Origin: Forficula auricularia
Lineage: Eukaryota > Arthropoda > Insecta > Dermaptera > Forficulidae
Length of the DNA stretch: 64,000 nt
Direction of reading: 5' to 3'
Assembly (NCBI GenBank): GCA_024734495.1
Contig: JALMQS010000030.1
Coordinates: 7,248,191 to 7,312,190, forward strand
This document shows positions 1,140 to 62,010 of the stretch, piece after piece. Each line of letters opens with the position of its first letter. Within the stretch, counting starts at the first letter, position 1. The translations under genes were made by a program, and so were the position numbers. Under the pieces are notes generated by a model. That model was not told the origin of the DNA, did no database searches, and saw nothing but the letters and a program-made list of their open reading frames with translations.

Positions 1140-2215
1140 TATTATAATTTGAAAGTTTATATTGAGAAAATAAGGACAAGTTTTTTATGTGTGACTTTTT
1201 TATTTATCCACCAAAGTTTCGTCGACTTTGCCGACTTCTTTAGGGCTTCTACAATTAATTGCATTTATTTTTGAAATTTTTTATTATTATTTATTTTTTA
1301 TTTTTATCTTTATACCTGTTTAGCAAAAAACTATAAATGCCACTTAAATTCTGGGTGTCTGTTCTAAAATTCACTGTATCATTTAACGAAATGTGAATCA
1401 TTTCACTTATTGTTCTTTTGAAATATACTGGTTCGAAATCTAATATTGATGTATCAATTATTAATCTAAATCATCAATTCAAGTTTAAAGATGCATTAAT
1501 ATTAGATTTCGAACCAGTGTATTTTAAAAGAACAAATAAGTGAAATGATTCACATTTCTTTAAATGATACAGTGAATTTTAGAACGACACCCAGAATTTA
1601 AGTGGCATTTATAATTTTTTGCTTAACAGGTATAAAGATGAAAATAAAAATAAATAATAATAAAAAATTTCAAAAATAAATGCAATTAAATATTGAAACA
1701 AAAATAGATTCCTAATGGATTTTTTCATTTAATAATGACTTGGCTGATCTCATTGACATATATTTTATAATGTATAAATTTAATTTATTCGAAGTTGAGA
1801 TTTCTGTATATAGGGATAAAACGAAAAAAAGTATTCTATTCTATTTTTATAAGAACGGGGTTGCCTTATTTTGTATATATTGATTCTGTTCGTTTATTAT
1901 GAAGTTGTTATTATAAAGAGAAAAATTGTGTATTTGTGAATATTTTTTGAAAATTGTATTCTGATGACCATCAATGGTAACGAAGGTAATAAGAAAATTT
2001 AGACGAATGTGTGACATGACTATTTGGTGGGTAAACTATTGATACATGTTTGTTTTTGGATTCTGACTGTACTTTTGTAAATTCATATCAAGAATGATTC
2101 TTATAATTGTAGAAGCCCTGAAGAAGTCGGCAAAGTCGACGAAACGTTGGTGGAAAAATAAAAAAGTCACACATTAAAAACTTGTCCTTATTTTCCCAAT
2201 ATAAACTTTCAAATT
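1140..2215. mobile_element. Foldback HHR element, family A
   Basis: The outer arms (about 1140-1260 and 2104-2215) are inverted copies of one sequence with a hammerhead-like motif: a relic on the - strand (1211-1250, core CUAAAGA, stem III damaged) and a complete one on the + strand (2115-2151). A second, nested hairpin fills the middle (about 1261-1475 against 1495-1687). The same outer sequence recurs at 55130-56215. It is probably a non-autonomous Penelope-like derivative. No clear TSD was found. Confidence 0.65.
2115..2151 (+). ncRNA. Hammerhead ribozyme motif, family A
   Basis: Core CUGAAGA at 2118-2124, stem II GUCG/CGAC with a 7-nt loop, GAAA at 2141-2144, palindromic ACGU as stem III and U at the cleavage position. 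Stem I is short (GCC/GGU). One extra A lies between A9 and stem II, as in most copies here. The zero-loop stem III means a monomer cannot close it, so a dimeric fold is expected. Confidence 0.75.
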
Positions 2216-2225
2216 ATAAATTAAA

Positions 2226-2455
2226 TATGAAAGATATTAATTTGCCGATGGTAATAGATTCAAATTTACTAGAAAATCATAAGATGGTGTCATCTATTAA
2301 TTATCGGGTTCGATTCCCGAGGGGGTGACAAACAACCCCTCTGACATATAATTAAAAATATTCCATTCCATCGGATTTAATAGATGACACCATCTTATGA
2401 TTTTCTAGTAAATTTGAATCTATTACCATCGGCAAATTAATATCTTTCATATTAA
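2226..2455. repeat. Inverted repeat with tRNA-like B-box loop
   Basis: Arms 2226-2300 and about 2366-2455 are near-perfect inverted copies. The loop holds GGTTCGATTCC, a good tRNA T-arm/B-box match, followed by a GAGGGGGTGA-like tract that recurs at 2697-2706 in the neighbouring copy. This looks like a SINE-derived foldback. Confidence 0.6.
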
Positions 2456-2620
2456 ATTAGGAAAAGTCATTCCATTGAATTTCTTCAAAATTCGAAACAC
2501 TCAACCACCTTTATTTAAATTATATAGCATGGCTATATGTTTAAATTTAGAATCACTATATCGCGAAATTTTACAAATTAAGATAACAATCTTTGAGCAA
2601 AATATTTTACGCGTTTACAT

Positions 2621-2727
2621 ATGTCAGAGAGGTTCGTATCCCGCAGGTGAGCCAGATGGCCCGGATTGCTGTTACTGGCACTCGGGTTCGGTTCCCGAGG
2701 GGGTGAAAAACAACCCTCTGACATATA
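2621..2727 (+). mobile_element. tRNA-derived SINE-like fragment
   Basis: A-box-like GTGAGCCAGATGG near 2646 and B-box-like GGTTCGGTTCC near 2686 are spaced as in a tRNA. The ends TGTCAGAG and CTCTGACA can pair as an acceptor-like stem. The following 80 bases repeat the right arm of 2226-2455. It is not a normal tRNA gene, because no complete cloverleaf could be drawn. Confidence 0.5.
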
Positions 2728-2769
2728 ATTAAAAATATTCCATCGGATTTAATAGTTGACACCATCTTA

Positions 2770-3336
2770 TGATTTTCTAGTTATAAATTAAATTATGGTC
2801 GGAAATGTTAATAATATATTATTATAATATAGGAAAAATTTATATTAAAATTCTATTAATTTCTTAATCATTTTGTTTGATTTAATATATATTTACTCTT
2901 TGAATTTTGAAAATTAATTTATTCAAAGAGTATTAGGGCAATTTATCAAAATATACTAAAAATATATACACATATTAATATATATATATTTTTTTACAAT
3001 ATTTACGTTTTTTTGTTTTCATTTATTCATTTAATTAAATAAAACTTTTTATATATATTTTTACATAATTTTCATAAGGAATTTTTTACTTAGCTGAAGG
3101 AAGGGAGCCACATCATGAAATTTGTGAGTAACTGACCGAAATGACAGCCGTATCCCCCATTTGCACCCGTCATATGATTTGCCAATTTATTCCTAATATA
3201 AACAAATTAATAATAAATATCAACAATAATAATTAATTTTCTTAAAATCGTTTGGATTAGCAACATTCAATATTTATTTTGAGTTAAATTATTTCATGTT
3301 TTTTAATTTTGTGTTTTATTTTGGAAATGTTTTCAG
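2770..3336 (+). other. Intron end before first visible exon
   Basis: AT-rich with no repeat recognised. It ends in a pyrimidine-rich tract and TTTTCAG (acceptor AG at 3335-3336). A GC-richer patch at 3095-3175 has no obvious function. Confidence 0.5.
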
Positions 3337-6300
3337 TTCGAAAGGACGTTATCCAGGGGTCTTCGGCAACAACGCAAATTAAATCAGAACAAATTGACGA
3401 CGAGAGTGGCTCCGGGAGTCATGGCTGTCCATATTGTAACTACGTCGCGACCAGTGAGATGAGATTACAAGGCCATGTAGTGGCTCAACATTCTGCCCAG
3501 CAGCAGCAGCTACAACAGCAACAACACCAACAACATCAGCAACATCAACACCAACACCAGCATAATCTCTCCCCTGGTGAATCAACTCACCAACAACATC
3601 AGCAACAAACCTCACCATCAAGTCGAGATTTCCTTTGTCCATTATGTCAAGACAGTTTCTCAGAACGTGTCCAACTGGAAAGACACGTCATGCAAATTCA
3701 TTCAGTCAATTCTGAGGGTCTACAACGACTTTTATCACTTGTAGATCAATCACATTGGTTAAATAAACAACAACAGCAACAACAACAACCTGGCCATTCT
3801 CCTGCCTCAAGCAATGCTAGTGGCTTGGATGCTTCTGGTAGTGGTGGTATTGCGGATGAAGCTCCTGAAGATTCATTAACCGAAGATGAGGTTAGATGTT
3901 TAGGCTGTAGTAAAACGTTCCGTGATACAGATTCTTTAGCTGGACATTTGGAAATAAGACAAACACAAGCAGGCGCTGCGCTGGTATGCTGTAGATGTCC
4001 ACAAGCATTTTCTAGTATTGTAGCGCAGCAGGCGCATTCACGAGAAATCCATGGAAGAAATACACCAGGTATTGCCGTCAGTGAAAAACATGTATATAAA
4101 TACCGATGCTCTCAATGCTCTCTTGCTTTCAAGACAATGGATAAACTACAATTACATTCACAATATCATCTCATACGTGACTCTACAAAATGTGTATTAT
4201 GTGCTCGTTCATTTCGATCTGTGGCAGCATTACATAAACATGTCGAAACGACACATACTGACCTTAGTGAAGAAGAATCTAACGCTTATCGTCAATCACT
4301 CCTATCTAATCCTTTACTATTAAGATTAGACCCAGCTAGTGCCGCGGCTGCTTTAAAAGATGACATCAATGAAGATGACGACGAGTGTGCACATAGTGAT
4401 GATGGTCAGCCTCCTCAGCCGCGAGAACAATATATAGACGATTATTTAAACAGTCAACCAGTAGCTGAAGAGAATTATAATGATCCAAGCCGGAAATATA
4501 AATGTCATCGATGCAAAGTTGCTTTTACAAGACAATCCTATTTAACAAGTCATAATAAAACTTTATTACATCGAAAAGGTGAAAAATTATCATATCCTAT
4601 GGAGAAATATTTGGACCCTAACCGTCCTTATAAATGTGATGTCTGTAAAGAATCATTTACCCAAAAGAATATTCTCCTTGTGCATTACAATTCAGTGTCA
4701 CATTTACATAAATTAAAACGTGCAATGCAAGAACAACATAATAATAATAATCCTTCTACTCCGTTACAAACAACTCCTACAAATGCTCAACAAGCCACAA
4801 CTCCTCAACAACAAACCAGTATCCCTACAACTCCTACATCAAGCGAAGATGATGATAAAAAACCATACAAGTGTAATATCTGTAAAGTTGCTTATAGCCA
4901 AGGCTCAACACTTGATATTCATATGCGATCAGTTCTACATCAAACCCGAGCTTCAAAATTACAAGATCTTGCCATGGCTGGGCAATTAGATTTTTCTCGA
5001 CCATTAATTGAACAACCAGATACAGTAACAGCAGCGGCTGCAAGACGAGGTGAATCCTCAACACCACCATCCCCTCATACAGCAACAGCAGCTCCTAGTC
5101 CTGCTCCTGTATCCACAACCGCAACCACACCTACAACTCCTGTTTCAGTTCCAACAAATATAAATTGTTCAAATAGTACAACCAATACAACATCATCAAA
5201 TTCTACACAGTCTTCAAATATACTTACATGCCAGAGATGTAATGCACATTTCGCTAATCAAGAACAATTGCAAACCCATCAGCAATTATATTGCTTATTT
5301 GGATCTGCAATTGCTTTATTTCCTGGAATAGACAAAGCGGCAGCAGCAGAGAATGAGGCGCTGCGTATGGGTGGAATTCCAAGCAAAAAGTCTAGCCAAG
5401 TTTACAAACACCTTTTAGAGTCATTTGGATTCGATCTGGTAATGCAATTTAATGAAAATCACCAACGACGAAGAAGAGAAGCTGAAGAAGCAATTATGGC
5501 AGCTGCAGCTGCAGCGGCAGCCCAACCCCCACCCGCAGCTCTTCCTGAACCAGAGCCCGAACCTCCTACAACAAACAACACCGAAGATGATCTATTAGCA
5601 GGTAGTGATCTTCCTGAACTAGCAAAATCTGTATGCCAACATTGTCGAAAAGAATTTTCAAGCGTTTGGGTGTTAAAAGCCCATTGCGAAGAAGTTCATA
5701 AAGATTTAGTACCTCCAGAATTTTTAGAACAATATGCACAAAAAATAAAATCTGAATATGAACGAAAAGCGGACGGAGAGAAAACAGACACTCCGTCTAC
5801 TAATACACCAACAACATCCACCCCTGCCAAAGATGCTCAATTATCAAATACATTGGGCGAAGATATCTCTCCTCTTGGGAAAGAATCTGCAAAAACACCC
5901 CCGGAAAGGCCATCAACAGCTCCATCAACGCCTACAGCTTCTTCCACACCAGCTTCAAGTACCAGTGGGCAAGAAGTACCGTCAAGTTCCTCATCCCAGA
6001 TGCCAACATTGGCTCAACATGTGAATGCTGAAGTTCAGGCTGCTATTTCAGCTATGGCCGCCTCGCAACTTCAACAACAGCTACAACAACTCAATCCAAT
6101 GATGTTGGGTATGGCTGGTCTTGGTATGTTCAACGTCAACGCCCTAGCAGCGATGAATCTTCAGCCTCCACTTGTTCCGATGATGATGCCACCGCCCGGA
6201 TTCGACCACATGGGCGCGAATGCACTTTTCCAAGCGCAGGCGGCTGCAGCGGTTGCCGGTTCTGCAGCTGCAGCGGCTGCCGCAAACGACCCACAGGCAG

Positions 6301-6350
6301 CTCTACTCGCCAAACAACAACAACACCTCTTACAACAACAACAACAAGCC
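3337..6350 (+). CDS. zfh2: zfh2/ZFHX3-like zinc-finger homeobox protein, exon with C2H2 fingers (partial gene)
   Basis: Large internal exon of a zinc-finger homeodomain transcription factor (nuclear, DNA-binding). It starts after TTTTCAG with two bases of a split codon and ends CAAGCC/GTAAGT in phase 0. About 1005 codons hold roughly eleven C2H2-type fingers: two near the start (CPYC..., CPLC...), four in the middle (one lacking a standard second His), three of the YKC.xC type joined by long spacers, and two later ones (CQRC..., CQHC...). Between them lie poly-Q, Q/H, T/P-rich and poly-A tracts. IKSE occurs twice and fits the SUMO psi-K-x-E consensus. The finger order followed by homeodomains in the later exon fits ZFHX3/4 and Drosophila zfh2. 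The N-terminus lies upstream, outside the window. An in-frame ATG at 3309 precedes the acceptor and is not taken as a start. The family call is firm; orthology is inferred. Confidence 0.9.
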
Positions 6351-7200
6351 GTAAGTACTCGTCATTACATTTTTATTATTATTATTAATCGGTTTTTAAA
6401 ATAACACACCAATAAAAATAAATTTGCATTGCATTACATAAATCGAATTAAATATGACAAATATAGAAATGGGAAATAAATCATAACCACAAATGGATTG
6501 AATTATGATGAAATGAATTTAATTCCCTCCCAATAATCGTGCAATAGAATCCAATTGCTACATCCTCCTAATGAGTATCATTTTTACTTTTTATTAGTAA
6601 GAATATCTTCAGAAACGAGGCCTTGGTTTTCCTTTGCATAATATTATCAAAATTTCTTCAATACTATCAAATTTATTAGAGTATTTTATCAACCGTCATG
6701 ATAATTGATGAATAAGTTTCAAATTCTTTTCACATATTCAAACTGATAGGCCGCGTTTTGTTTTCTATGATTTTTTTTTTTTTTTAATATTCATACAACT
6801 CGCCTATTGCTTTTATAAGGAATTTCCATTCAATATCAAATCAAAGGAAATGGATAAAAAAAAAAATACCAAATCATTGGATTGGTTGGTGAGCTTGATT
6901 AGAAAAATACGACCTCAATCTTTTATTAGTTCAGGATTTATTTATTGAATAGCGTGAGAATAAATTAAAAAAATAAATAAAGCAAAGATAATCAACGAAA
7001 AATCCTTTTTCCCTCACCTCAAATTGAAATAATTTTTTTGAATTAAATAAATTAGATATTAATAAAAATAGTTACAAGATTTGATAATAAAAAAAAATCT
7101 TAAAAGTTGTTAAATTTTCTAATTAATAAATGAAGTACATTCGCAGGTATTTGTAAACTTCAGATCTGTTTATTGAAATAAGTATTCAGTTCCATGATAA
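6351..7200 (+). other. Intron 1, AT-rich unique part
   Basis: Donor GTAAGT at 6351. It is AT-rich, with T and A homopolymers. No exon, repeat family or RNA recognised. Confidence 0.5.
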
Positions 7201-10964: not shown

Positions 10965-11205
10965 TTGCAGAGAGTAACGGAATTTTTATAAATCAAAGGA
11001 GACAATAAAAGAGTGTCTTCTGCTTGAAAAATAAATTTTTTAATTTATTTATAACGAGATTATAGTTTCGAGGACTTTGAAAGTCACTTCCTGTGAATCA
11101 TTTGTAATATACTGATGAAGGGGCTAATCCCTCGAAACTATAGTTTCGTTATAAATATTCCTGCAAAAGACACGTACTCTTTTATTGTCTCCTTTAATCT
11201 AATTT
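10965..11205. mobile_element. Foldback HHR element, family D, in intron 2
   Basis: Inverted arms (about 10965-11075 and 11130-11205) share GGAGACAATAAAAG-like ends. The right arm carries a + strand HHR (11106-11148); the left arm keeps only CUCGAAACUAUA on the - strand. Related copies are at 13595-13850 and 61860-62010. Confidence 0.6.
11106..11148 (+). ncRNA. Hammerhead ribozyme motif, family D
   Basis: CUGAUGA at 11112-11118, a stem II of G/C pairs around CUAAU, GAAA at 11134-11137, then palindromic ACUAUAGU as stem III and U at the cleavage position. Stem I is poor in this copy but well paired in the relative at 61945-61991. It is sense with respect to the zfh2-like intron. Confidence 0.65.
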
Positions 11206-15400: not shown

Positions 15401-15824
15401 TTGTCTCTTCTCTTTCTTTTCTCTTTTATTTCTTCCTAGTACTACTACTACTTATTTTTATTTTCATATTCTTAGTCGTTATTTAATAAAAATTGTATTG
15501 TTTAAAAATTGTATATGATAATTATGATAAGTGAGTTGGCATATTTGGAATAAGAATAGAAATCGAATCGAAACGGTTCGAATGATGAGCCTTAAATAAA
15601 GAAGAAGAGGTGGAGGATGATTGATGGTGACGAATTCATGTCCAATTGGCTAAATTTATGTGGAAACAGGCTAAGAATGCAAATTGTTTCCCTAGGATAT
15701 GTGGGCCCACCAAAAATAAAATATTATTAATTGAGAAATAATGGAAAGGCAGCTCAAGGATAGTGAAAATAATTCCCTCGAGTAAAATAGATTTTGTTGG
15801 ACAGTCATTTTTTTCTGACTCAAA

Positions 15825-15866
15825 AACTGACATTTCGTAGGATTTTTCCCTCCTTCTTCAGGGTCT
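15825..15866 (-). ncRNA. Hammerhead relic, family E, in intron 2
   Basis: On the - strand: CUGAAGA, a damaged GGAGG-type stem II and GAAAUGUC. It is closest to the intact copies at 38358-38400 and 38579-38621. It is antisense to the gene. No inverted partner was seen. Confidence 0.5.
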
Positions 15867-16710
15867 ACAAATTAATATAAAAACGGGGTTGGCCATCATT
15901 TATTTCATTCAAATACCTACGTTCATAAATACACATATAGCCAGATTATTTATTTATCTATCTATCCATCCAGAAAATACTCCAACATACAATATGTCGT
16001 GTCCTATAAAGTTGACAAGTCAACTGTACATTGGACCGGATTAAAATTAATAATTAAAAAAATTATTATTTTCATTATTGGCGATTTCAGATTGAACATG
16101 AAATTATACAATTGTGTTCGTAAAAAAGAAAAGATTCAACTTTTAAATCGAGTTTTCTTTTCAATCGAACTTGGCTCAAGTCACTAAATTTCTAAAAAAT
16201 TTATAAAAAAATTCTAAAATCAAATAGTATAAATCATTTCGGTTATTATATTATTTCCAAGAATAGTACATAATTGATAATTGATTCTTATTCAAGAAAC
16301 TAATTAACAATTTGACATCTCTATAGAGACAGGTATATAAGTAGAATTTATTATTAGATTTATTCAATTCTCTAGCCAGAAAATTGTTGGAGGAAACAAA
16401 ATATTTTCTCCCATAAGATTAGTTTGTTACAGATGATATACTGAGAGAGCTTTGCTCATATTATCTACCTATTATCAATTGTTCTATATTTTATTTGTAT
16501 CTGCTCTACGAGGCATCTACCTCAGAGCATTGTTCAATAATAAAATAAATAAATACATAATTTTTCTGTTAACTAGCGCCTCTAGTTGCTGATTTTCGTC
16601 AATAAAATTATTTTTTAAAAACGTATAAATATTCTAAAAACAATTATAGTCAGATTTTGATATTTATTATTATTATTATTTAAATTTTTATTTTTATCGA
16701 ACTTAGTTCC
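15867..16710 (+). other. Intron 2, no feature recognised
   Basis: AT-rich unique sequence; no exon with flanking splice signals or known repeat recognised. Confidence 0.35.
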
Positions 16711-37430: not shown

Positions 37431-37511
37431 AAATATAATAACAAGTAAAGGAATGTAGGGAGTTGGACAAGACTTTAAAATTAAATTAAATAATAAGTTT
37501 TGATTAAATAT

Positions 37512-37922: not shown

Positions 37923-37962
37923 GCCACTGAAGAAGTTGCAAAATAGCAACGAAACGTATGGC
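37923..37962 (+). ncRNA. Hammerhead ribozyme motif, family F, right arm
   Basis: GCCA, CUGAAGA (37927-37933), GUUGC/GCAAC, GAAACGUA at 37951-37958, UGGC. Core complete; the loop of stem II differs from the left arm by a base or two. Confidence 0.8.
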
Positions 37963-38357: not shown

Positions 38358-38400
38358 AAACCGACGTTTCGGAGGATTTTTCCCTCCTTCTTCAGGGTTT
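38358..38400 (-). ncRNA. Hammerhead ribozyme motif, family E, left arm
   Basis: AAACC, CUGAAGA, stem II GGAGG/CCUCC with loop GAAAAAU, GAAA, ACGU, C, GGUUU. All core positions present; stem I is five perfect pairs. Confidence 0.83.
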
Positions 38401-38578
38401 CAAAGGGTCAATGAATGAAACAAATAAAATGTTTTCTTCTTCTCTCCACACACACTAATTAAGAAAAGGAGGAAAAAAATGTTTTTCTATGCCTTTGCTA
38501 AAAAAAAACAGAAAGTTTTGAACACTACTATGGAGAGAAGAAGGAAACATTTTATTTATTTCATTCATTGACCCTTTG

Positions 38579-38621
38579 AAACCCTGAAGAAGGAGGGAAG
38601 AATCCTCCGAAACGTCGGTTT
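38579..38621 (+). ncRNA. Hammerhead ribozyme motif, family E, right arm
   Basis: AAACC (38579-38583), CUGAAGA (38584-38590), GGAGG/CCUCC, GAAACGUC (38609-38616), GGUUU (38617-38621). Beyond stem I, CCCUU and AAGGG can pair after a small internal loop. This is the best-formed copy in the window. Confidence 0.85.
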
Positions 38622-38904
38622 GAAGGGAAAGGAGGAAGGATTCCTATAAATTACACCTTATTTGATGTGTTAATTTTTTCTTTCCTCACTACCCCTGGGC
38701 TGCCTTCCATTACATTCAATTAAAATTATAAAATTTTAAAACTCAAAATATAAATATATTATAACATTCTTATTTTTTTTTTTTTTTTACATTTAATAGT
38801 TAAATAAAAAATATTTTCAACTAAACTCGATTTTATTTTTTAAATTTAAAATTTAAAATATTTAATAAATAACAATGTATATAAAAAGCAGAGAATATGG
38901 TATG

Positions 38905-44356: not shown

Positions 44357-44369
44357 ATTATAACAATAG
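44357..44369. repeat. Left 13-bp TSD of PLE insertion
   Basis: ATTATAACAATAG, repeated at 46919-46931 and present once in the uninterrupted copy near 53602-53614. Confidence 0.85.
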
Positions 44370-44431
44370 TTAATAGAGTAAAGGGTGTGTGGTTTCACAG
44401 TGAATGAAATAAAACTCAAAGAGGTTTATAC

Positions 44432-44474
44432 AAACTCAATATATTTCGGATTATTAGTCCATCATCAGGAGTTT
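44432..44474 (-). ncRNA. Hammerhead ribozyme motif, family C, PLE left arm
   Basis: AAACUC, CUGAUGA, stem II GGA/UCC around CUAAUAA, GAAA, AUAUAU palindrome, U, then GAGUUU. Stem I has six perfect pairs. It lies downstream of the - strand GIY-YIG frame, as expected for a PLE. Confidence 0.8.
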
Positions 44475-45029
44475 ACAGGTTGAAAACTAGTATTAATTGA
44501 ACGAGTGGTCGCCATTCTTGACATTCAAATCATGGTTGCCAATATAACAAAATATAACATTCAAATCTTACACAAGAAAAACACCAATGAAAATTTAAAA
44601 TTTAAAAAATTTTTTAAAAAATTGTTTTACAAAGATTTTTCTTTTTTAATTATAAAATATATAAATGTAAATATAAGAAATCTAAGTAAATATGAATATT
44701 AATACAAATAAAAATTACAAGTATAAATATAAAGTCTTTTTAGAATAAAATTAGAAAGTAAAATTACAAATTTAAGTCATAGACACAAAATTAATTATAA
44801 ATATCAGTTTACAAATAAGCCTAAATAACATATAGAGATGAAGAATTAAGATAAAATATAATAGGGATAAATTAGATGAGATAAATTACAATATACAACA
44901 ATTTTTGTGGTTATCTCATATATCAAAGTGTCATTTATTTTAAAGACTGAAGGCGCGTGATTTGAATTTAATTTTGATTGTAATTTGGGAAATAGTATAT
45001 ATTTGAGAGAGACTGAGGTTAAGTTTTTT

Positions 45030-45500
45030 TTAATTTTTGTTAATTAGTAGATCTATTATTGTGGAATTTCTAATGTCCTGCTGGTTATTGAGAATTTTAT
45101 CTTTTTCAATTATAGCTTTCTTAATTTCGGTTGATTCTAACAGGTCTAGTTTCCGGCTTTTAGAGGCGAAGTGTAGTGGTATAGGATTTTGGGGTGAAGG
45201 TGAGTGATTGTTTTCAATAAGGTGGTCTGCGAAGGCGGAGGTTGGATCACTCTGTATGGTTTCTGATTGTAGCTTTCTTAACGAACTCAAATGTTCTTTA
45301 TACCGGGTTTTGAAAGTTCTGCCCGTCTGACCAATATAAAACGAGTCGCAGTCTTGACATTCAAGTTTATAAACACCAGATTTCTCCTTTGGGTCAATTT
45401 TATCAAGTTTATTATTAACTAATATAGATGACAGGTTAAAGTTGTTATATAGTGCTGGGGTGATGCCCTGTTTGTGTAAGAACCACCACCTAAACACCAA
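45030..45500 (-). pseudogene. PLE GIY-YIG endonuclease fragment, left arm
   Basis: About 150 codons ending TAA. GVYKL and FYIGQTGR are the GIY and YIG motifs; a Cys pair (CQDC) and later KTRYKEH and DHL residues match the Cys/His-bearing GIY-YIG domain of Penelope-like elements, which nicks target DNA during retrotransposition. Homology to the right arm starts at the FLHKQG residues (45482); the first codons come from the central spacer, so the ATG at 45500 is not a real start. The reverse transcriptase is absent. Confidence 0.82.
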
Positions 45501-45509
45501 ATTGTCAGC

Positions 45510-46209
45510 CTTTTATTCAATGTTTCTACCGTCTCATAAACATCCCATTGTCCCCCGAAAACTACAATTTAGAACTTAACACTATCCATCAAATAGCAGA
45601 AAACAACGGCTATCCCTCAAGCATAATTAAAAATATCCTCCGAAAACTAACATTTAGAAAAACCCTGGCCCTAATTGAACCACCTCCCCTCAAACAGACA
45701 AAATTTATAGAAAACTTCCCTTCATCTCTGATCAATTTAATAGACCAATAGTCACTTTCTTACACAAACAGGGCATCACCCCAGCACTATATAACAACTT
45801 TAACCTGTCATCTATATTAGTTAATAATAAACTTGATAAAATTGACCCAAAGGAGAAATCTGGTGTTTATAAACTTGAATGTCAAGACTGCGACTCGTTT
45901 TATATTGGTCAGACGGGCAGAACTTTCAAAACCCGGTATAAAGAACATTTGAGTTCGTTAAGAAAGCTACAATCAGACACCATACAGAGTGATCCAACCT
46001 CCGCCTTCGCAGACCACCTTATTGAAAACAATCACTCACCTTCACCCCAAAATCCTATACCACTACACTTCGCCTCTAAAAGCCGGAAACTAGACCTGTT
46101 AGAATCAACCGAAATTAAGAAAGCTATAATTGAAAAAGATAAAATTCTCAATAACCAGCAGGACATTAGAAATTCCACAATAATAGATCTACTAATTAAC
46201 AAAAATTAA
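45510..46209 (+). pseudogene. PLE linker plus GIY-YIG endonuclease fragment, right arm, frameshifted
   Basis: A first frame (about 45530-45751) has the PLE linker between reverse transcriptase and nuclease (NIPLSPENY, IAENNGYPSSII). It runs out in a stop at 45749, while the continuation FISDQFNRPIV...FLHKQG is in another frame from about 45721, so one frameshift lies near 45712-45722. The second frame continues through GVYKL, FYIGQTGR and the His/Cys residues to TAA at 46209, nearly identical to the left arm. Upstream polymerase motifs are missing. Confidence 0.8.
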
Positions 46210-46766
46210 AAAAAACTTAACCTCAGTCTCTCTCAAATATATACTATTTCCCAAATTACAATCAAAATTAAATTCAAATCACGCGCCTTCAGTCTTTAAA
46301 ATAAATGACACTTTGATATATGAGATAACCACAAAAATTGTTGTATATTGTAATTTATCTCATCTAATTTATCCCTATTATATTTTATCTTAATTCTTCA
46401 TCTCTATATGTTATTTAGGCTTATTTGTAAACTGATATTTATAATTAATTTTGTGTCTATGACTTAAATTTGTAATTTTACTTTCTAATTTTATTCTAAA
46501 AAGACTTTATATTTATACTTGTAATTTTTATTTATATTAATATTCATATTTACTTAGATTTCTTATATTTACATTTATATATTTTATAATTAAAAAAAGA
46601 AAAATCTTTGTAAAACAATTTTTTAAAAAATTTTTTTAAATTTTAAATTTTCATTGGTGTTTTTCTTGTGTAAGATTTGAATGTTATATTTTGTTATATT
46701 GGTAACCATGATTTGAATGTCAAGAATGGCGACCACTCGTTCAATTAATATTAGTTTTTAACCTGT

Positions 46767-46809
46767 AAACTCCTGATGATGGACTAATAATCCGAGATAT
46801 ATTGAGTTT
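46767..46809 (+). ncRNA. Hammerhead motif, family C, PLE right arm (A14 to G)
   Basis: Same layout as 44432-44474, with stem I AAACUC/GAGUUU and AUAUAU palindrome, but GAAA reads GAGA. This single change hits a conserved core adenine; cleavage is probably lost. Confidence 0.75.
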
Positions 46810-46966
46810 GTATAAACCTCTTTGAGTTTTATTTCATTCACTGTGAAACTACACACCCTTTACTCTATTAACTAACATCATGTTTCACCTAAAACCTACA
46901 CCACTTTCCATAAGTAAAATTATAACAATAGGTGTCTTTAAAAAACTTCACTAGTTTACAATAATA

Positions 46967-50030: not shown

Positions 50031-50519
50031 ATTTAATGGAACTCGAAAATAGGTCAAAATGGCATTTTTCGTCATTTTGACTGATAATATCTCAAAACTC
50101 TGATGTATAGTAAAAAATCGGGAAATTGGATGATAACACTGGGCAACAAAAAAATAATTTTTAAATGCTTCGAGCACTTGATGAGTCAATTCCTACCAAT
50201 TTTGGGTTGAGAAAAACGAATATGACAATGAAAATTTTTTCTTAGCTCTAGTTTCTGTGAAATACAGTAGGTGGCGGATCAAGAGAAAAAGATACATTTT
50301 AATTACATATGCTAACAACATTGAAAGTGCATTTTATTTTTTTACAAATTGTAGTTACATTCTAAGAGTTCTACATTGCTGGAATAATACTTCACAGATG
50401 GTCGTGTCTGAAGAGATTTATGTGGTGCCTTCATCAGATCGTCGTTTTTTAGCTTGCCTCTTTTTTGTTGCCCAGTGTTATTAGTCCATCAGGAATTTAC
50501 AGATTAGTTTTTAACCTGT

Positions 50520-50562
50520 AAACTCCTGATGATGAACTAATAATCCGAAATATATTGAGATT
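50520..50562 (+). ncRNA. Hammerhead motif, family C, fragment copy
   Basis: AAACUC, CUGAUGA, stem II with one mismatch (GAA/UCC), GAAA, AUAUAU, U, GAGAUU. Core complete; stem I has one mismatch. It sits in a partial family C element (about 50480-50635). Confidence 0.7.
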
Positions 50563-51584
50563 GTATACACCTCTTTGAGTTTTATTTCATTCACTCTGAA
50601 ACTACACTCCCTTTACTTTATTAATGTTTATTATCCTTTATAATCACGTAGTTTTAGTTTTTTAGTTATAACTCGAGTTCTAATTGAGCTACAAACAAGT
50701 GGTAATTTGTAAATCAAGAGGAAGCTGTTTTCTATTAGTTCAACAAAATATTGTGATCTCAAATATTGTTGTTTAATATCTAACGGAACTCGAAAATAGG
50801 TCAAAATGGTCTTTTTCACCGTTTTGATCGATTATATCTCCAAAACAAGAGCTAATCGGTAATCTTTATGGTGATTTTTGAATTCAGCAGGTGGAAATAC
50901 ATAAGAATCAGCTATTTTTGAGCCCGAAGCAATTTCATTGTTGGGCAGTGTAATCAGTGTAGAAAACTCTACAAGAATCCATTGTTAGGGAGAAATTTTT
51001 GTTTAATTTTTGTCGAACAGTGTATTCATCTTATTTAAAAAATTTTTGTTTATACTCCTAAATAACAAAAACTTAATTTTTACACACACAAAAAAACATC
51101 CAGTTGAAAGTATTAATTCGGTCTCCCCTCGTTGGTTGGCCTGAACGACGCGTCACTCATGATTGATGTCTGACCACAAAATTTGATAGAAGAGAAAAAA
51201 AAATGTTTTCAAGTGGGTAAAAAAAATAATATTTTTGGGTAAAAATTTAAGTTAAACCAACTGGAAAGAAACTTTGGTTATTCTAAAATAAGTAAAAAAA
51301 AAAAAATCGAATATTTAAAAAATAACCAAGTATAAAATTCGAAAATTGTTTATTCTTATTGGCCTATTGCCGTAGACCTACTTTCATTGAATATCTACCT
51401 ACAGTCCAGAGGATGCTGTCCAAAATATAATCCTTAAATTTTTAAAATTTTATTTTATTTTTCGATGGGGAATTTCGAAATGAACCAAAGAGAGGAGACT
51501 TTTGAATTAAATAAAAAAATTACGATGAGAGTCCGATTATTTACAACATAGTTTACGTAGTAATTGAAAAGTTTTTGTTTTGCC

Positions 51585-53130: not shown

Positions 53131-54034
53131 GTATACTATAGTATATTTCAATTTTTCGAAAATGCTCCTCAATTTCCTTTAGTTTTCAAAAGTTCTCTTT
53201 GTACTCTTAGTCTATATGGAGGGTAGTTATGTACCAAATTTCATTAAAATCTGAGATGGTGGGGTCAAAAATGTGTTAAAATTGTGTTGAGTTAGTGTAG
53301 AATGACTCTCCTCTACGTCTACAGATATCTTCCCGCACAACGGATAAAATCTTCTCTTCTTTTCACGATGGAAGTGGCGATTCAGGCCTTTAGGGATTGC
53401 ATGTTCTTGGTGTAACTCCTTCTCACATGAATATCATTAAAAAAATGATAGGTGAAGCATTATTAAATCTAATTAATTAATTGTTAAATAATTATTAATT
53501 TGTTGTTTTTTTTCAATATTTTATTGATTATTTATTTACATTGTTGAAAAAATAAATAAAGCTAAATCTACGCGTTTATTTTAGCTATTCTTTATTTTAC
53601 TATATTATAACAATAGGTGTCTTTAAAAAACTTCACTAGTTTACAATAATAATGCCAAAGTTTTCAATATTGAAAAATAATATAATCGTTTTTGTTTATT
53701 TGATTATTATTTGGATGATTAATCTCATGTTTTTGAGAAATAAATGGCGAAAATTGAAAAAAATTCGTAAAATTTTCAAGAATTGCATGAAAACTTGCTG
53801 GGCTGGATCTGATTTGAGGGAAACTTTGCATAATGAAATTAAGGGTATTAGGTATACATTTATACGGGTGAATAACTAGATTATCTCTACAAAATTAAAG
53901 AGTGCAACGATGTTAAATATTGGTGTAGATTTTTAGTAGTGGCGTACGGTCCATGGATGCTGCCTAAAATTTCAAAACGTCAAGAGTATTTTCATACCGT
54001 GTTACAAAAATCTAGTATTAAATTTGAAAAATAA
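53131..54034 (+). repeat. Dispersed duplication copy 2, uninterrupted (empty site)
   Basis: Matches copy 1 (43885-44356 plus 46932-47349) and has a single ATTATAACAATAG where copy 1 has the 2.55-kb PLE insertion. Divergence is low. Confidence 0.85.
53652..53879 (+). CDS. Hypothetical 75-residue open frame in duplicated repeat, copy 2
   Basis: Same as the frame at 46967-47194: hydrophobic segment then basic stretch, two Cys, same length and stop position. Function unknown. The open frame is kept in both copies, but they differ at too few sites to show selection. Confidence 0.3.
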   Translation: MPKFSILKNNIIVFVYLIIIWMINLMFLRNKWRKLKKIRKIFKNCMKTCWAGSDLRETLHNEIKGIRYTFIRVNN

Positions 54035-54700
54035 CTGGTAGTTTCTGCTGGAATCTTTCTTTAATTGGAAATCGAATCTGTCGTTTACATTGAAATTGAA
54101 TTTAATCCGCCACGACGATTCTCTTTTTTTCTTCCAATTTCCAATGTAAAATACACTATCATTTCATATTCATTGAATTTTTCTGTTTTAAATAAATCCA
54201 CTCTCGATGGATAATATGGACAATTTCGAAGAGAAACTGCCCGGATCTGCATTTTCTGGAAGTATGTAAAAAAGGAATGGGATGTTTGTGGTTGGCCCCG
54301 AAGGGTGGGTCGTGACCTGAAAACAACAGTAGTTGAGTGGTTAGTTAGTTAGGCCCATGTGAACGCAATGAAGGAAGGACCCCATCGAAACCCCTCGCAG
54401 CGACGATTGTGTCAAATCATTCGGTTTGCATGCCTTTTCTAGGAGAGATCGTGTTCGCCCGTGGGGGGTCAATCGGCTCCACATTCGGTGGGATGATGAC
54501 CCCCCCATTGGACTCATTTCATGTCCGAAACGTCACGACCCACGCCTACGGGGTCCACGATTGTATTTTGCATTGCTTCTGACATACGGCCGAATGATTA
54601 ATTAATTCCTATCGGTGGGGGTGAAGTGGAAGGGTCATCGGTTAATAACACTTCAGTTCGATTTCGATATATATATACAGTGGGAATGCCAAGTATTTGA
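54035..54700. promoter_or_regulatory. Unique GC-rich block (candidate conserved regulatory DNA)
   Basis: The longest non-repetitive, GC-richer stretch downstream of the gene. It contains many runs such as GGCCCCGAAGGGTGGGTCG, TTGGACTCATTTCATG and ACCCACGCCTACGGGG. It starts exactly where duplication copy 2 ends. No frame with domains or splice sites. It could be an enhancer or an unrecognised non-coding RNA or exon. Confidence 0.3.
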
Positions 54701-54780: not shown

Positions 54781-55629
54781 CTCGTTAAACAACGTCACCC
54801 ACCCATCATTAGAAATGGACCTTATGGTGCGAAAGTGGGAGAGATAGATATAGAAGAAGCGCGCGCTTTGGTCTTCGAGGAGGGGACGGACGGTCGGACA
54901 AACGAATATACAGAAAATTCTAGCAAGTCATCATTTTTAAATTTACTTAATAAATATAGGATGTTCCAAAAAGTGGGTGTCTCTCTAATTCAATTAATAA
55001 AAATTAATTTTCTATTTTTATTTTGTTTAAAATTCATATTATGACGTATTCAAGAGCATATAGGTATTGGAAATTTTAAATAAAAAAATTTTCTATTTCA
55101 ACATTAAATAAAGTTTTAAAGTTTATAATAGGAAATAAGGACAAGTTTTTATGTGTGACTTTGCCGACTTCTTCAGGGCTTCTACAATTGTGGGAACATT
55201 ATTAATATCAAGTTGCAAGAGCACATTATAATTTCAGAACAAACAAGTTTCAATATTTTGCTCACCAAATAGTCACAAAACACACATTCCTCTAAATTTT
55301 CTTTTTATCTCCGTTACCATCATTGAAGACCACCAGAAACTTTTTTTTTTTTTGGCTTTTTGGCCTTTTTAGCCATAAGCCACTTTACGATACTATATAT
55401 TTATTTTTCAAATTTGTCTCTACTCCCGGGGTCAGATTTTAGCTGGATGCCTCGAGTCGGATTCGAACCCGGGTCCCCTGGTTAGCCCAGAAACTTAAAT
55501 TTCAAAAAAAAAAATTATTTGTTATTTCTAAGACTAATATAATTGTTACTATTGTTATTCAGTTCCATTATTTAGATATTAAATTTGGCAAATCAGAGGA
55601 AAATAGAAACAATTAAACAGTGTTAAAAC

Positions 55630-55668
55630 ATTCGACGTTTCGCCAATTTATTATGGCTTCATCAGGCT
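55630..55668 (-). ncRNA. Hammerhead ribozyme motif, family B, left arm
   Basis: CUGAUGA, stem II GCCA/UGGC, GAAACGUC. Core complete. Stem I is only one or two pairs, so the outer helix is doubtful. Confidence 0.65.
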
Positions 55669-55802
55669 CCTGATCAATTTCACAAAATACTTTGTCATTT
55701 ATCTTCTTACCAATTAGAATATCTATATATATATATACCAATATTAACACACTTATTTATACAATACTATTAATTATTTAGAGTAGCCAGCAATGGATTC
55801 AA

Positions 55803-55845
55803 CCAGACTGATGAAGCCATAGTAAAATGGCGAAACGTCGCAATT
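55803..55845 (+). ncRNA. Hammerhead ribozyme motif, family B, right arm
   Basis: CUGAUGA (55808-55814), stem II GCCAU/AUGGC, GAAACGUC (55832-55839). Core complete; stem I poorly formed. Confidence 0.65.
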
Positions 55846-56120
55846 GATCGAATGTTTTATCACTGTTTAATTGTTCCTATTTTCCTCTGATTTGTCAAAT
55901 CTAATAATTGTTAGTATAAAATAAAAGAAAAGGAAAATTGTTTATAAGAATGTGCCAAATTTTAGGAAATTTAAGTTTCTGATGATCTTCAATGATAAAA
56001 AGAAAATTTAGACAAATGTGTGATGTGACTATTTGGTGGGTAGATATTGATACATGCTTGTTCTGAAATTATAATGTGCTCTTGCAACTTGATATTAATA
56101 ATGTTTTTGTAATTGTAGAA

Positions 56121-56157
56121 GCCCTGAAGAAGTCGGCAAAGTCGAAGAAACGTTGGT
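56121..56157 (+). ncRNA. Hammerhead ribozyme motif, family A
   Basis: GCC, CUGAAGA, stem II GUCG with its last pair lost (CGAA instead of CGAC), GAAACGUU, GGU. Core complete. Confidence 0.68.
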
Positions 56158-56219
56158 TGATAAATAAAAAAGTCACACATAAAAACTTGTCCTTATTTCC
56201 TATTATAATAAACTTTAAA

Positions 56220-56849: not shown

Positions 56850-57860
56850 ATATATAATTCATAAATTTCATAAGTTTGACTCATAAATAAGGAACATGTT
56901 GATAAAAATTACATTTTTTTAATTATATAAAAGCCTCAGAGAACACGAAGACACCCATAGGTGTTACCCTCCTTGATTAATACTAAAAGTGTGGGTGTTT
57001 TAAACTTGAAATTTTATTAAAATAAACGCAACTGCTTTTAATTTTGGTTATTATTTGAATACAGTGTCGTTTAAATAATATTTTTTCCCAATCAATTCCT
57101 TGATTTGATGAAATATTTTATTGTCATGTGCGCAAAGTTTTAATAAAATTGGTTGCTTAGAAGTTTCTAAGTCAAAATTCGATTATAAGATTTTACCCTG
57201 ACAAATAGAAGAATCAAAGGAACCAAAATAAAATACAAAATTTCTTAATTATCTAGGTCTTTTTCAAATATCCCTTATGTGGGTGGATGATTTGTCTCCA
57301 TTTCTCCCTCGTCCCCCTCTCTTTTTTTTAATCGAATCAAATTTTATTCTGCGTTTCAAATTCATTTTCCATCTATTGAATATTTTAACAGAAATATCCA
57401 TTCAACCGTTTCGTAATAACTTTTTTTCTTATTCTTATAAATTTTCATCTCTATTTTCAAACACCTTATAACTATTTTTCCATCTAAAAAAAAAAAAATT
57501 GAATTTTATATTTTTTTCTTCTTCTTCTTCTATCTCTTCTTTAATAATAATTACATTGAATGGTTGGTCACCTGGTCCCGAAAGAAAAAGAGAGAGAGAA
57601 AACGAAATTTGTGGCAATTACTCGGCGATTAAAGCACGCGGCGCGTAAGCTAAAGAAGAAGCATGCGTGCACTGATGCGTGCACAACAACAACACCAACA
57701 ACACCACCAACAACAACAACAATAACAACAATAAAGTCAACGATAAAAACCAAAAGAAGATGAAGAGAAAAATAACAAGGATAATTCTATAGAAACGAAA
57801 TCCAATCGACATATTTCTTAAGAGTTTTAACGAGAAGGAAAATAATTAATTTTAATTGAA
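56850..57860. other. No gene recognised
   Basis: AT-rich, with a (CAA)n-type run near 57685-57735 and a GC-richer patch 57560-57680. Open stretches here are low-complexity. Confidence 0.3.
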
Positions 57861-57861
57861 G

Positions 57862-57904
57862 TCTCGCTGAAGAAGTCGCAAACATAGTGACGAAACGTTC
57901 GTCT
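57862..57904 (+). ncRNA. Hammerhead ribozyme motif, solitary
   Basis: CUGAAGA (57867-57873), stem II GUCGC/GUGAC (five pairs, one G-U), GAAACGUU (57892-57899), CG closing a two-pair stem I. No inverted partner nearby. Confidence 0.7.
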
Positions 57905-57909
57905 TATTC

Positions 57910-59226: not shown

Positions 59227-59478
59227 AGGAATTATTATTTAACGGGTTATAGTGAGTGTTTCACAAAGAGGAAATAAAATTAAAAAATTAAAAAATCTTT
59301 TAAATTATTTTGGAGATTTTTTATATAAAAAATATAAAAAATCTCCAAAATAATTTAAAAGATTTTTTAATTTTTTTAATTTTATTTCCTCTTTGTGAAA
59401 CACCGCTATAACCCGTTAAATAATAATTCCTTTGTTTAATATGTTTCACTATAAACCAACACCGCTTTCCCTAAACTT
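59227..59478. mobile_element. Short palindromic element with 12-bp TSD
   Basis: TATACCGAGTGA at 59215-59226 and 59479-59490. The first 200 bases are a near-perfect hairpin (arms about 59229-59322 and 59337-59430); the right end (TTTCACTATAAACCAACACC) resembles the family C/PLE end (46885-46905). No HHR core found. Possibly a minimal PLE derivative. Confidence 0.72.
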
Positions 59479-60052
59479 TATACCGAGTGAGTTTTTTTTA
59501 TCTTGAGACAGTCTTATAACTCAAAAAGGGTGCATTATATGAAAAAAGTTTCAAATAAAAGTTTATTTATATCAGGGGGGAAACTAAACTACGCTATTGT
59601 TTGTCTACCTAGAACAAGCTTTCATGGGTATTTCGAGGTCAAGTTCTGATTTTTAAATGAAAACATATATTTTTCTGTACATATTCTGAAACTACAAAAA
59701 AAAACTGAACAACTTTTATTAGAACTATTTTTTTATACGACATCAACTAATTAAAAATACTAAATCAATTAGATCTCAAAAAAATCTTAATAATTATTTT
59801 TAACAATCATTCAACTTAATTATCAAATAATAATGATTAAATAATTAATTATTAAATAAATATTTATTAAATCTAAAAGTCACAACAATGAAAATAAGTG
59901 TTTATAATGATCTCAAAAACTTCATTATGGGTAGGTACACAGATTTAAGAGATTATTTTCTACTTAATAGAACTATTTAAACTTCTTGAGTTTAAAAAAG
60001 TTTATTTCTCGTGTCAATCCAGTAGATAGTTATATTGTATTACCATAATAAA

Positions 60053-60319
60053 AATGGAGCATTTTTTGTTGAAGTCAGAATTGAAATGGTCTTAATTTAT
60101 GGTGAATGTGGAAGAAGTGTTATTGGGGCTGCCATTGAAATGGATGCCGAGCGTTTTCCTGATAGAAATACACCCTCACAAGCTTCATTTTATCATGTTG
60201 TAAATCTGTTAAAAAACAAAAGAAATTGGAACTGGAATCCATCCAGAAGACTTGCGATACACTCTGGAATGTCTCAGAACAGTGTCACAAAATTATTAAA
60301 TTATTTATTTAATAATTAA
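60053..60319 (+). pseudogene. DUF4817-like helix-turn-helix fragment of a transposase
   Basis: The frame contains LIYGECGRSVIGAA, AERFPDRNTPSQASFYHVV and SRRLAIHSGMSQNSV. This order (YGE, then FP.R..PS...F, then SRR.A...G.S..SV) fits the DUF4817 DNA-binding region found with insect DDE transposases. Upstream, ATGGAGCATTTTTTGTTGAA is in another frame, suggesting a frameshift. No catalytic domain follows; the frame ends in the inverted arm. It probably binds nothing today. Confidence 0.6.
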
Positions 60320-60634
60320 ATATTTGATCATTATTATTTTATAATTAAGTTGAATGATTGTTAAAAATAATTATTAGAATTTTTTTTGAGATCTAATTGA
60401 TTTAATATTTTTTTTATTTGATGTCGTATAAAAAAATAATTCTAATAAAGGTTGTTCAGTTTTTTTTGTAGATTCAGAATATGTACAGAAACATATAGAG
60501 TTTTATTTAAAAAACAGAACTTGACCTCGAAATATACTGGAAAGTTTGCTCTAGGTCGACAAACAATAGCGTGGTTTAGTTTCCCCCTGATATAAATAAA
60601 TTTTTATTTGAAACTTTTTTTCATATAATGCACT

Positions 60635-60830
60635 AATTAATAAAGTGGAGGGTGTGTAGTTTCACAGTGAATGAAATAAAACTCAGAGGTTTATACAAAC
60701 TCAATATATTTCGGATTATTAGTCTATCATCAGGAGTTTACAGATTACAACTGGAAACTACACACCTTTTACTTTATTAATTAATATCTATTTCACTTAA
60801 AACCTACACCACTTTCTCTAAGTAAAAAAA
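60635..60830. mobile_element. Short family C HHR element with 12-bp TSD
   Basis: ATATAATGCACT at 60623-60634 and 60831-60842. It is 196 bases. The left part carries an HHR on the - strand; the right end matches the PLE end (AAAACCTACACCACTTTC). The internal coding region is gone. It is inserted in the DUF4817 element. Confidence 0.82.
60697..60739 (-). ncRNA. Hammerhead ribozyme motif, family C
   Basis: AAACUC, CUGAUGA, stem II with one lost pair (AGA/UCC), GAAA, AUAUAU, U, GAGUUU. Core complete and stem I perfect. Confidence 0.75.
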
Positions 60831-60899
60831 ATATAATGCACTGTTTTTGAATTATAAGACTGTCTCAAGATAAAAATAAACTCACCCGGTATATATTTT

Positions 60900-61585
60900 C
60901 TTTGGATATATCGAAGCGAGAGGGGGAGGTGGATTTTTTTGCTGCTTATTTGAATGGAAATAAAGGATTTTTTTCTGATCAATATGATTGAAAGGTTCTT
61001 CACCCTGGATTCTGAGTCAGAGCCAAGTTATGTCTGCGACCTTCAAATTGAAATTGTTTTTTTATTTTTTCTATCTCTCTTTCTGTCTCATTTTATCTTT
61101 CATGAAGCTCACTTTCTTATTGAAAAGATTGATGAACGAATCTCTCTTATATCGAAGGGGGGATTAAATATTTCGAATCAATTCAGGTGGGAATCCCCGT
61201 TCTCGCTTAGCCAATTGAATAATATCGCGTATTTCTGTGGATTTTGAGAAGATTGGTTATACTGGAGGTTCTTCTTCGTCGTCTAACGTTAAATCAACCA
61301 TTAGTACCTACACGTTTTCCCAAGAAGATTGGATATATTTTACACCCCACGAGTCTAAGCCCTCTCCATTTTATAAGCGAAACCAGAGGGTTAAATTTCC
61401 TCACCTGATAGGGTGTTTTCAGAAATTTGAATTATATATCTTATGTGTCTTAATCATTGCTAGGATTTATAGAAATAATTTCAATTTTCTTGCAAAATAA
61501 TAATAATTTGCCCTTTTCTAAGCAATAAACGTAATACAGTAGAATTAGTACATTGCTAAATGGCTATGGCTAAATTGAGGCGGTC
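60900..61585. other. No recognised gene; two moderate open stretches
   Basis: Open stretches at 60954-61247 and 61237-61500 overlap by a few bases but show no known domain. The DNA is less AT-rich than its neighbours. An exon of an unknown gene cannot be excluded. Confidence 0.25.
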
Positions 61586-61623
61586 CAAAAAAAGAAGATA
61601 ATTTAGACTATCTTTTCATTCAT

Positions 61624-61667
61624 AAACCGACGTTTCGAAGACTTATTCACTCCTTCTTCGGGGGTTT
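61624..61667 (-). ncRNA. Hammerhead-like motif, left arm (U4 to C)
   Basis: CCGAAGA, stem II GGAG/CUUC, GAAACGUC, GGUUU. U4 is changed to C, and an extra C disturbs stem I. Confidence 0.6.
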
Positions 61668-61693
61668 GAAAAGTCAGTGAAGGAAATTTTTCA

Positions 61694-61736
61694 AAACCCT
61701 GAAGAAGGAGGGAATGAGTCTTCGAAACGTCGGTTT
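61694..61736 (+). ncRNA. Hammerhead ribozyme motif, right arm
   Basis: AAACC (61694-61698), CUGAAGA (61699-61705), stem II GGAG/CUUC including a G-U pair, GAAACGUC (61724-61731), GGUUU. Core complete. Confidence 0.78.
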
Positions 61737-61859
61737 ATGAATAGTCTAAATTATCTTCTTTTTTTGGACTCCCTCATCAATATTCACTCAGTTCACTTAT
61801 CAGTCCGCCTCCAAAAATTACTTCAATCTTATTTTATTTTAAATTTACAATTTCTTTTC

Positions 61860-62010
61860 GCCGAGAGTAGCAGAATTTTTATAAATTAAAGGAGACAATA
61901 AAACAGTGTGTTTTCTGCTGGAAAAATAAATTTTTAAATATTGATATAGAGACTATAGTTTTGAAGACTTTGTCCTCTTCATCAGTCTATTACAGTTCAG
62001 GAAAACTTTC
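61860..62010 (-). mobile_element. Family D HHR element, single arm
   Basis: Starts CCGAGAGTAGCAGA and GGAGACAATAAAA as in 10965-11205 and 13595-13850, but without a right arm. Confidence 0.6.
61945..61991 (-). ncRNA. Hammerhead motif, family D (G12 to A)
   Basis: AUAGA, CUGAUGA (complement of 61979-61985), stem II GAGGAC/GUCUUC, AAAA in place of GAAA, ACUAUAGU palindrome, C, UCUAU. Stem I has five perfect pairs, but the catalytic G12 is lost. Confidence 0.65.

Follow-up and report, generated by a model that had tools for sequence, protein, structure and literature searches.

Outward-facing hammerhead ribozyme pairs of Penelope-like type in a 64-kb stretch of the Forficula auricularia genome

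Hammerhead motifs of the window

The stretch of DNA analyzed here, hereafter the window, comprises 64,000 nucleotides of Forficula auricularia (positions 7248191–7312190 of contig JALMQS010000030.1) and belongs to a genome of 1.06 Gb. It contains insertions whose two inverted arms carry hammerhead motifs pointing outward, among them a Penelope-like element (PLE) with endonuclease fragments and short units without an open reading frame (ORF). Judged by sequence, the motifs are type I minimal hammerhead ribozymes with a self-complementary stem III. An initial annotation had described about 36 such motifs, 15 of them with a complete core, as a dense landscape made by several PLE families.

The core word CUGANGA is found 45 times in the window; dinucleotide shuffles predict 17.0, and none of 100 reached 45. 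When stems I and II of at least 3 bp each and a palindromic or hairpin stem III are demanded, eight motifs are left, all of them palindromic. The shuffles gave a mean of 0.03 and a maximum of 1. All eight motifs require one additional base after CUGANGA, and a window scan without that base returned no structured hammerhead. The 15 cores are all present as exact matches to CTGANGA, one further base, a loop, GAAA, and a self-complementary stem III, but only eight keep full stems. The other seven are decayed or weak: stem II is damaged at 50520, 56121, and 60697, and stem I is weak or absent at 11106, 55803, 55630, and 57862. Sites of the AUAUAU class lie at 44432, 46773, 50520, and 60697. The observation is confirmed, but the figure of about 36 does not settle into one count: a covariance model built from 18 ACGT-class sequences from outside the window finds 26 matches there at E ≤ 1, of which 22 have E < 0.01, and the AUAUAU class comes in addition.

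The outcome of a covariance search depends on the model. The one built from same-genome copies succeeds, whereas the hammerhead models of Rfam 15 gave no match in the whole window, either at the gathering score or at E ≤ 10, and none in 37440–38740 alone. A test with standard models would thus have failed, and this form of hammerhead is missed by them in the window. Rfam matches to microRNA families at 33486–33591, 59236–59422, and 38343–38636 were rejected as inverted-repeat hairpins, all of them below gathering scores. Such families reach 129 bits on inverted arms, still under those scores, and are a trap for automatic microRNA annotation. The motif was also found in 55 stretches of a phage collection and at least 118 of a prokaryote collection, with one match each, which is taken as chance. 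Fifteen of the 173 listed stretches, all holding the motif by construction, were scored with the model; the best two reached 23.7 bits (E = 7e-5) and 21.3 bits (E = 5e-4), and 17 window matches score above 23.7 bits.

At the genome scale, the strict ACGT pattern, CTGANGAAG-N(6–20)-CGAAACGT, has 39,249 matches versus 2 for the reversed-pattern control, and the AUAUAU pattern has 15,852 versus 0, i.e., about 55,100 places together. The ten strict ACGT matches of the window amount to approximately 156 per Mb, where the genome has 37; at about four times the average, the window is indeed dense, yet it is not unlike the rest of the genome.

To describe the fold, a parser that demands a palindromic stem III and excludes G at H17 was run on 300,020 bases, made up of the window and 40 loci of this genome. 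It returned 96 motifs, and 20 shuffles of the whole set each gave 0 or 1. The core consists of CUGANGA and GAAA with the pair A15.1-U16.1, and H17 is C in 61, T in 21, and A in 14 motifs. Stem II does not follow CUGANGA directly: one extra base stands between them in 94 of the 96 motifs (A in 74, U in 20), and its closing pair forms in 0% if this base is ignored. The two exceptions are both arms of one element in locus L020, which has a canonical core. This element (L020:525–2082) is a PLE-like unit with a distant endonuclease match (26–27% identity), and its hammerheads have ACUAGU as stem III. Stem III is ACGU in 74 motifs, AUAUAU in 11, AUAUAUAU in 5, ACUAUAGU in 3, ACUAGU in 2, and AUAU in 1; since the parser demands a palindrome, only this variety is informative. 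In the genome, the ACGT pattern counted above includes the extra A, and the pattern one base shorter, CTGANGAG-N(6–20)-CGAAACGT, has 991 matches (control, 4), which may be one-base deletions or separate families. Passages of PMC10085705 report known hammerhead alignments with insertions of at most one or two bases after CUGANGA, so the extra base does not exclude hammerhead membership; other hammerheads are also known to carry short insertions within the core or next to it (passages of PMC3088659 and PMC10085705).

In an alignment of 18 ACGT-class rows from outside the window, preselected for stems I and II of at least 3 bp and kept apart from AUAUAU rows, 95.1% of the cells pair and eight of nine pairs change on both sides, while slid partners pair in 27–50%. 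In the unselected ACGT class, stem I is paired in 74% (maximum of 1000 partner shuffles, 67.6%) and stem II in 87.5% (maximum, 78.7%). These alignments demonstrate compensatory change in stems I and II of the predicted fold for the ACGT class, but not for the AUAUAU class. Several results weigh against the fold as drawn. In the unselected AUAUAU class, stem I is paired in 61%, compared with a shuffled mean of 65%, and stem II in 80%, which equals the shuffle maximum. Minimum free energy folding of single motifs gave the exact stems I and II in three of six (families A, C, D), and when two copies were folded together, the prediction was a domain-swapped duplex, not a stem III dimer.

Head-to-head insertions and the link to Penelope-like elements

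Among the ACGT and AUAUAU places listed, 31 of 35 neighbors within 400 nt stand head to head with their ribozymes outward. In the ACGT class (first 100 places listed), 16 such neighbors are outward, 1 inward, and 3 tandem, all three in one array; in the AUAUAU class, all 15 are outward. The remaining listed places have no exact neighbor within 400 nt. With 170–200 bases between core words, the genome holds 1,321 outward pairs versus 14 in the control, and 202 inward pairs, which is the control level (207). Moreover, 9 of 11 family A loci in which the motif is listed alone have an inverted partner arm that is truncated or mutated (only 31 nt long in L031), so most solitary-looking family A motifs belong to inverted pairs; no partner arm was found for L037 and L038. 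The sole satellite-like array in the fetched loci, L023:4594–5214, consists of five tandem family A hammerheads 111–125 nt apart and adjoins an inverted arm.

The anatomy of these insertions is clearest in the PLE at 44370–46918. The sequence ATTATAACAATAG stands at both of its flanks and occurs once, at 53604–53616, in a related copy of the surrounding repeat without the insertion. Both arms contain a GIY-YIG endonuclease fragment and a hammerhead near the outer end, and a 44-base tail is found only on the right arm. Pfam detected GIY-YIG but no reverse transcriptase (RT) in this copy. In all ten fetched loci of the same kind (L222–L231), the hammerhead follows GIY-YIG on the same strand, 559–574 nt downstream. 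These are 3.5-kb loci with an endonuclease 99–100% identical in nine besides the window; L224 is the window copy itself, and L229 and L230 are the arms of one insertion. In L231, RVT_1 (E = 2e-8) and GIY-YIG (E = 4e-4; 20.9 bits versus the Pfam cut-off of 22.6) share one 433-aa frame. An endonuclease search of the genome placed 28 of 150 scored matches, drawn from 9,781 candidates, in open frames of 400–834 aa. The attribution of the hammerheads to several PLE-type families was therefore right but incomplete; it did not include the pairing of arms head to head, the additional base in the core, the tail on one side, or the target duplications. Nine loci (L222–L230) share a 100% identical 176-aa endonuclease frame with the same start after a stop, i.e., a recently spread lineage with a broken ORF.

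Family A, which has no ORF, repeats this anatomy. Flanks of at least 9 bp are shared in 18 of 20 insertions, compared with 44 of 380 mispaired flanks, and the duplications measure 9–19 bp and are on average 93% A+T. L032 was dropped from this test, L023, L031, and L037–L039 were not entered, and one right end in L017 was set by eye; an earlier version with wider windows (at least 8 bp in 17 of 21, versus 41% of mispaired flanks) is superseded. A 20-mer of the family A tail has 4,506 genome matches versus 0 in the control. Arms resembling the pseudo-long terminal repeats (pLTRs) of PLEs, a one-sided tail, and a target duplication are thus all found. The short units most likely use the same machinery as PLEs, and the shared anatomy points to mobilization of the ACGT families by PLE proteins. 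The endonuclease matches adjoin the AUAUAU and ACUAGU types; none lies inside an ACGT-type unit in the loci searched, a sample without an ORF-bearing copy of the ACGT families.

How the arms were probably copied

The stems of the ACGT class with their compensatory changes, the extra base, the outward arms, the one-sided tail, the duplications, the variable arm lengths, and the lack of a pile-up of arm ends at the predicted cut site can be read from the DNA itself. The best explanation overall, which we consider probable, is that PLE-type hammerheads sit near the 3' ends of PLEs and of short ORF-less units, both made from two primed complementary DNAs (cDNAs) and a template jump, on a template left uncut. 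An element protein would cut both target strands and start one cDNA from each on the sense RNA. The two neighboring start sites would lie 3' of the ribozyme and so yield two arms with a single tail. The tailless cDNA, being the longer, would often reach the RNA 5' end and then switch to the second cDNA while that one is still incomplete, which would join the arms head to head. During copying the template would be uncut, any cleavage being late or serving another step. Passages of PMC11167929 describe the purified protein of PAc (Poseidon of Anolis carolinensis) as cleaving both strands and extending them, with starts inside the RNA, and the PAc tail as the stretch between two start sites.

Arm lengths were compared in 22 family A insertions, from loci fetched because the motif is present. 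The tailless arm is longer in 15, the tail arm in 4, and the two are within 5 nt in 3 (p = 0.019). The 5' end of the unit is reached by 10 of 22 tailless arms versus 3 of 22 tailed arms (p = 0.045). At 11 diagnostic sites in 15 insertions, the arms of one insertion agree in 119 of 132 comparisons, whereas mispaired arms agree in 57% (maximum of 2000 shuffles, 77%), which indicates that both arms came from the same or sister RNAs. The clearest exception is 38218–38727, whose arms agree at 6 of 10 sites; three of its four differences separate the two main subfamilies (grouped by eye). In L021 and L026, the arms agree at 7 of 9 sites.

Arm 5' ends do not gather at the predicted cut. A total of 130 arms reach their own 3' end; setting aside the 21 limited by the reference leaves 109, of which 4 end within 5 nt of the cut, and an even spread over about 270 nt would give an estimated 4.4; in family A, none of 44 arms ends within 10 nt. 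The copied RNA was thus probably uncut. Arm ends seem to cluster some 36 nt before the cut, but a good part of this cluster consists of cross-family alignments from the conserved core, with a few real family A cases. Matches between family A and families G or H mostly begin 36–58 nt before the cut and end at most about 20 nt after it, some G–H matches being longer. These families share little beyond the hammerhead, which suggests selection on the hammerhead in source elements, and the simplest reconciliation would be a role of the ribozyme after or beside copying.

Several points weigh against this account. The shared arm variants do not distinguish a single RNA copied twice from two RNAs of one source. 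Because loci were chosen for containing the motif, an insertion whose arms both end at the cut or short of it had less chance of being sampled, and the counts overstate the strength of the cut-site test. Arm ends given by BLAST are imprecise, and the 109 arms include cross-family alignments that start at the conserved core. One of the four cases with a longer tail arm (L017, 4849–5500) is the reference itself. In family A, both arms reach the unit 5' end in 3 of 22 insertions and stop near the same internal place in 1 of 22, which also suits self-priming.

Self-priming is the main rival to two primed cDNAs with a template jump: a single cDNA would snap back and copy itself into an inverted duplicate. 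Passages of PMC3846280 infer it, there with an antisense template, from palindromic junctions in Penelope of Adineta vaga, and both the near-symmetric insertions (L010, L016, L017, L013) and the source variants common to the two arms agree with it. Snap-back on the tail-bearing first cDNA, however, predicts a longer tail arm, the minority outcome in family A (4 of 22), and the arms of 38218–38727 resemble two subfamilies; we regard self-priming as unlikely. Less likely still is a further role for the ribozyme, in which the palindromic stem III would dock two template RNAs, one per nicked strand, and the dimeric ribozyme would fire after copying, clearing the templates for head-to-head cDNA joining. 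If true, this docking would explain the palindromic stem III, the inverted pairs, the uncut templates, and two-subfamily insertions such as 38218–38727.

An origin as retrozymes, whose tandem units give an RNA that the ribozyme cuts into circles ahead of copying, is improbable. Animal retrozymes of 170–400 nt do carry type I hammerheads (passages of PMC7229834), and the five-unit array of L023 is of tandem form, but tandem neighbors within 400 nt number 3 of 20 in the ACGT class, all in that array, the AUAUAU class has none among its 15, and arms extend across the predicted cut site. The short, ORF-less units with inverted termini and thousands of copies also recall miniature inverted-repeat transposable elements, DNA transposons whose terminal inverted repeats would happen to carry ribozymes; this is highly improbable, given that arm length and center vary by copy in family A, the tail is one-sided, the duplications are 9–19 bp long, and the endonuclease-bearing PLE has the same anatomy. 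Finally, CUGANGA is short and would occur 17 times by chance in the window, but the idea that the motifs are chance matches in AT-rich DNA, since decayed, is refuted by the shuffles (0.03 versus 8 structured motifs), the reversed controls, and the covariance model.

Relation to known systems and other features of the window

Minimal PLE hammerheads, palindromic stem III, dimer cleavage, inverted PLE arms and pLTRs, and tails have all been published. The minimal hammerheads of PLEs (Cervera and de la Pena 2014; Lunse, Weinberg and Breaker 2017; both as cited in passages of PMC7761336, PMC6155905, and PMC6466107) are likewise of type I, have little or no and self-complementary stem III, occur in thousands of copies per genome, and are associated with PLEs. 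Those passages stress tandem copies, whereas here an extra base (94 of 96) and a head-to-head order are found. Penelope of A. vaga has inverted pLTRs, an optional 31-bp tail at one end, duplications of 8–10 bp, and palindromic junctions (PMC3846280), and thus resembles the present insertions in its arms, one-end tail, target duplications, and junctions. However, the word hammerhead is absent from that paper, while here short ORF-less hammerhead units are frequent. PAc has its hammerhead near the pLTR-ORF junction, as here, and its internal RT start, its cutting and extension of both strands, and the dispensability of ribozyme cutting match the reading proposed here: its in vitro insertion is independent of cleavage, and no RNA-seq reads ending at the cut site were found (passages of PMC11167929). 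That work studied a single tandem locus in vitro, whereas the present evidence is the record left in a genome by many head-to-head copies. Animal retrozymes are also small non-autonomous units with type I hammerheads, but they form tandem repeats and circular RNAs (passages of PMC7229834), in contrast to mostly inverted pairs with apparently uncut templates. Outward hammerhead pairs and a genomic cut-site test appear in no title or abstract opening among the papers listed in literature searches on hammerhead inverted repeats and Penelope priming.

The counts suggest that copied RNAs are uncut at the ribozyme and, if two cDNAs are primed as proposed, that both target strands were primed in most sampled family A insertions. 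The genome's roughly 55,100 strict matches, spread over many families, allow large-scale counts of arm 5' ends, arm pairing, and source variants. The features of the window are collected in Table 1.

Table 1. Hammerhead-bearing insertions and related features of the window (CM, covariance model).
Feature	Position	Strand	Basis and remarks
Head-to-head PLE insertion, AUAUAU-type hammerheads	44370–46918	both	self-BLAST, empty-site comparison
Arms of the PLE insertion	44367–45482; 45757–46874	−; +	99.2% identical, BLAST; tail 46875–46918, one side
Target duplication ATTATAACAATAG, 13 bp, left copy	44357–44369	+	single at empty-site relative 53604–53616
Target duplication ATTATAACAATAG, 13 bp, right copy	46919–46931	+	empty-site comparison
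Related repeat copy without insertion (empty site)	53132–54035	+	self-BLAST, comparison
PLE GIY-YIG endonuclease fragment, left arm	45030–45512	−	Pfam PF01541, E = 9.8e-5
PLE GIY-YIG endonuclease fragment, right arm	45679–46209	+	Pfam PF01541, E = 1.4e-4; relatives found
AUAUAU-type hammerhead, PLE 3' end	44425–44485	−	stem I 9 bp, stem II 3 bp, extra U
PLE partner hammerhead, decayed core	46765–46830	+	GAGA for GAAA
Family A head-to-head insertion without ORF, tail left	38218–38727	both	11-bp shared flank
Arms of 38218–38727	38218–38450; 38455–38727	−; +	resemble two subfamilies
Family A hammerhead	38355–38403	−	CM, 68.0 bits
Family A hammerhead	38576–38624	+	CM, 68.0 bits
Family C head-to-head insertion, tail right	37439–38059	both	stem II GUUGC/GCAAC
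Family C hammerhead	37508–37556	−	CM, 50.4 bits
Family C hammerhead	37919–37966	+	CM, 51.0 bits
Family C head-to-head insertion, tail left	33347–33701	both	
Family C hammerhead, stem III ACGC (decayed)	33440–33487	−	CM, 43.6 bits
Family C hammerhead	33590–33637	+	CM, 50.6 bits
Family F hammerhead remnant, left arm	1205–1251	−	CM
Family F hammerhead	2110–2156	+	CM, 52.6 bits
Family F hammerhead, stem II decayed	56116–56162	+	CM, 46.0 bits
Family E head-to-head insertion	55577–55906	both	flanked by family F arms 55115–55342 (−), 55973–56219 (+)
Family E hammerhead, weak stem I	55626–55673	−	CM
Family E hammerhead, stem I lost	55808–55839	+	CM
Family H head-to-head insertion	61576–61810	both	hammerheads 61621–61669 (−), 61691–61739 (+)
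Family N hammerhead	57859–57907	+	CM
Old family A hammerhead	15821–15869	−	CM
AUAUAU-type PLE 3' end, hammerhead decayed	50503–50624	+	
AUAUAU-type PLE 3' end, hammerhead decayed	60634–60750	−	
ACUAUAGU-type hammerhead, stem III palindrome of 8	11104–11146	+	14.5 bits, E = 0.046, ACGT-class model

The gene setting of the window is given by two long open frames, 3288–6404 and 20489–23935, which encode C2H2 zinc fingers and, in the second, also four homeodomain stretches. This is a layout that we take to be that of animal zfh-2/ZFHX genes, and the two frames are probably exons of one gene of this type with repeats between them. Long AT-rich inverted repeats of another family lie at 26403–27527 and 59473–60899; they are 83–91% alike within and between loci and are fold-back elements. 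Inverted 600-bp copies of one further repeat, with 94% identity, occupy 36102–36695 and 62674–63276.

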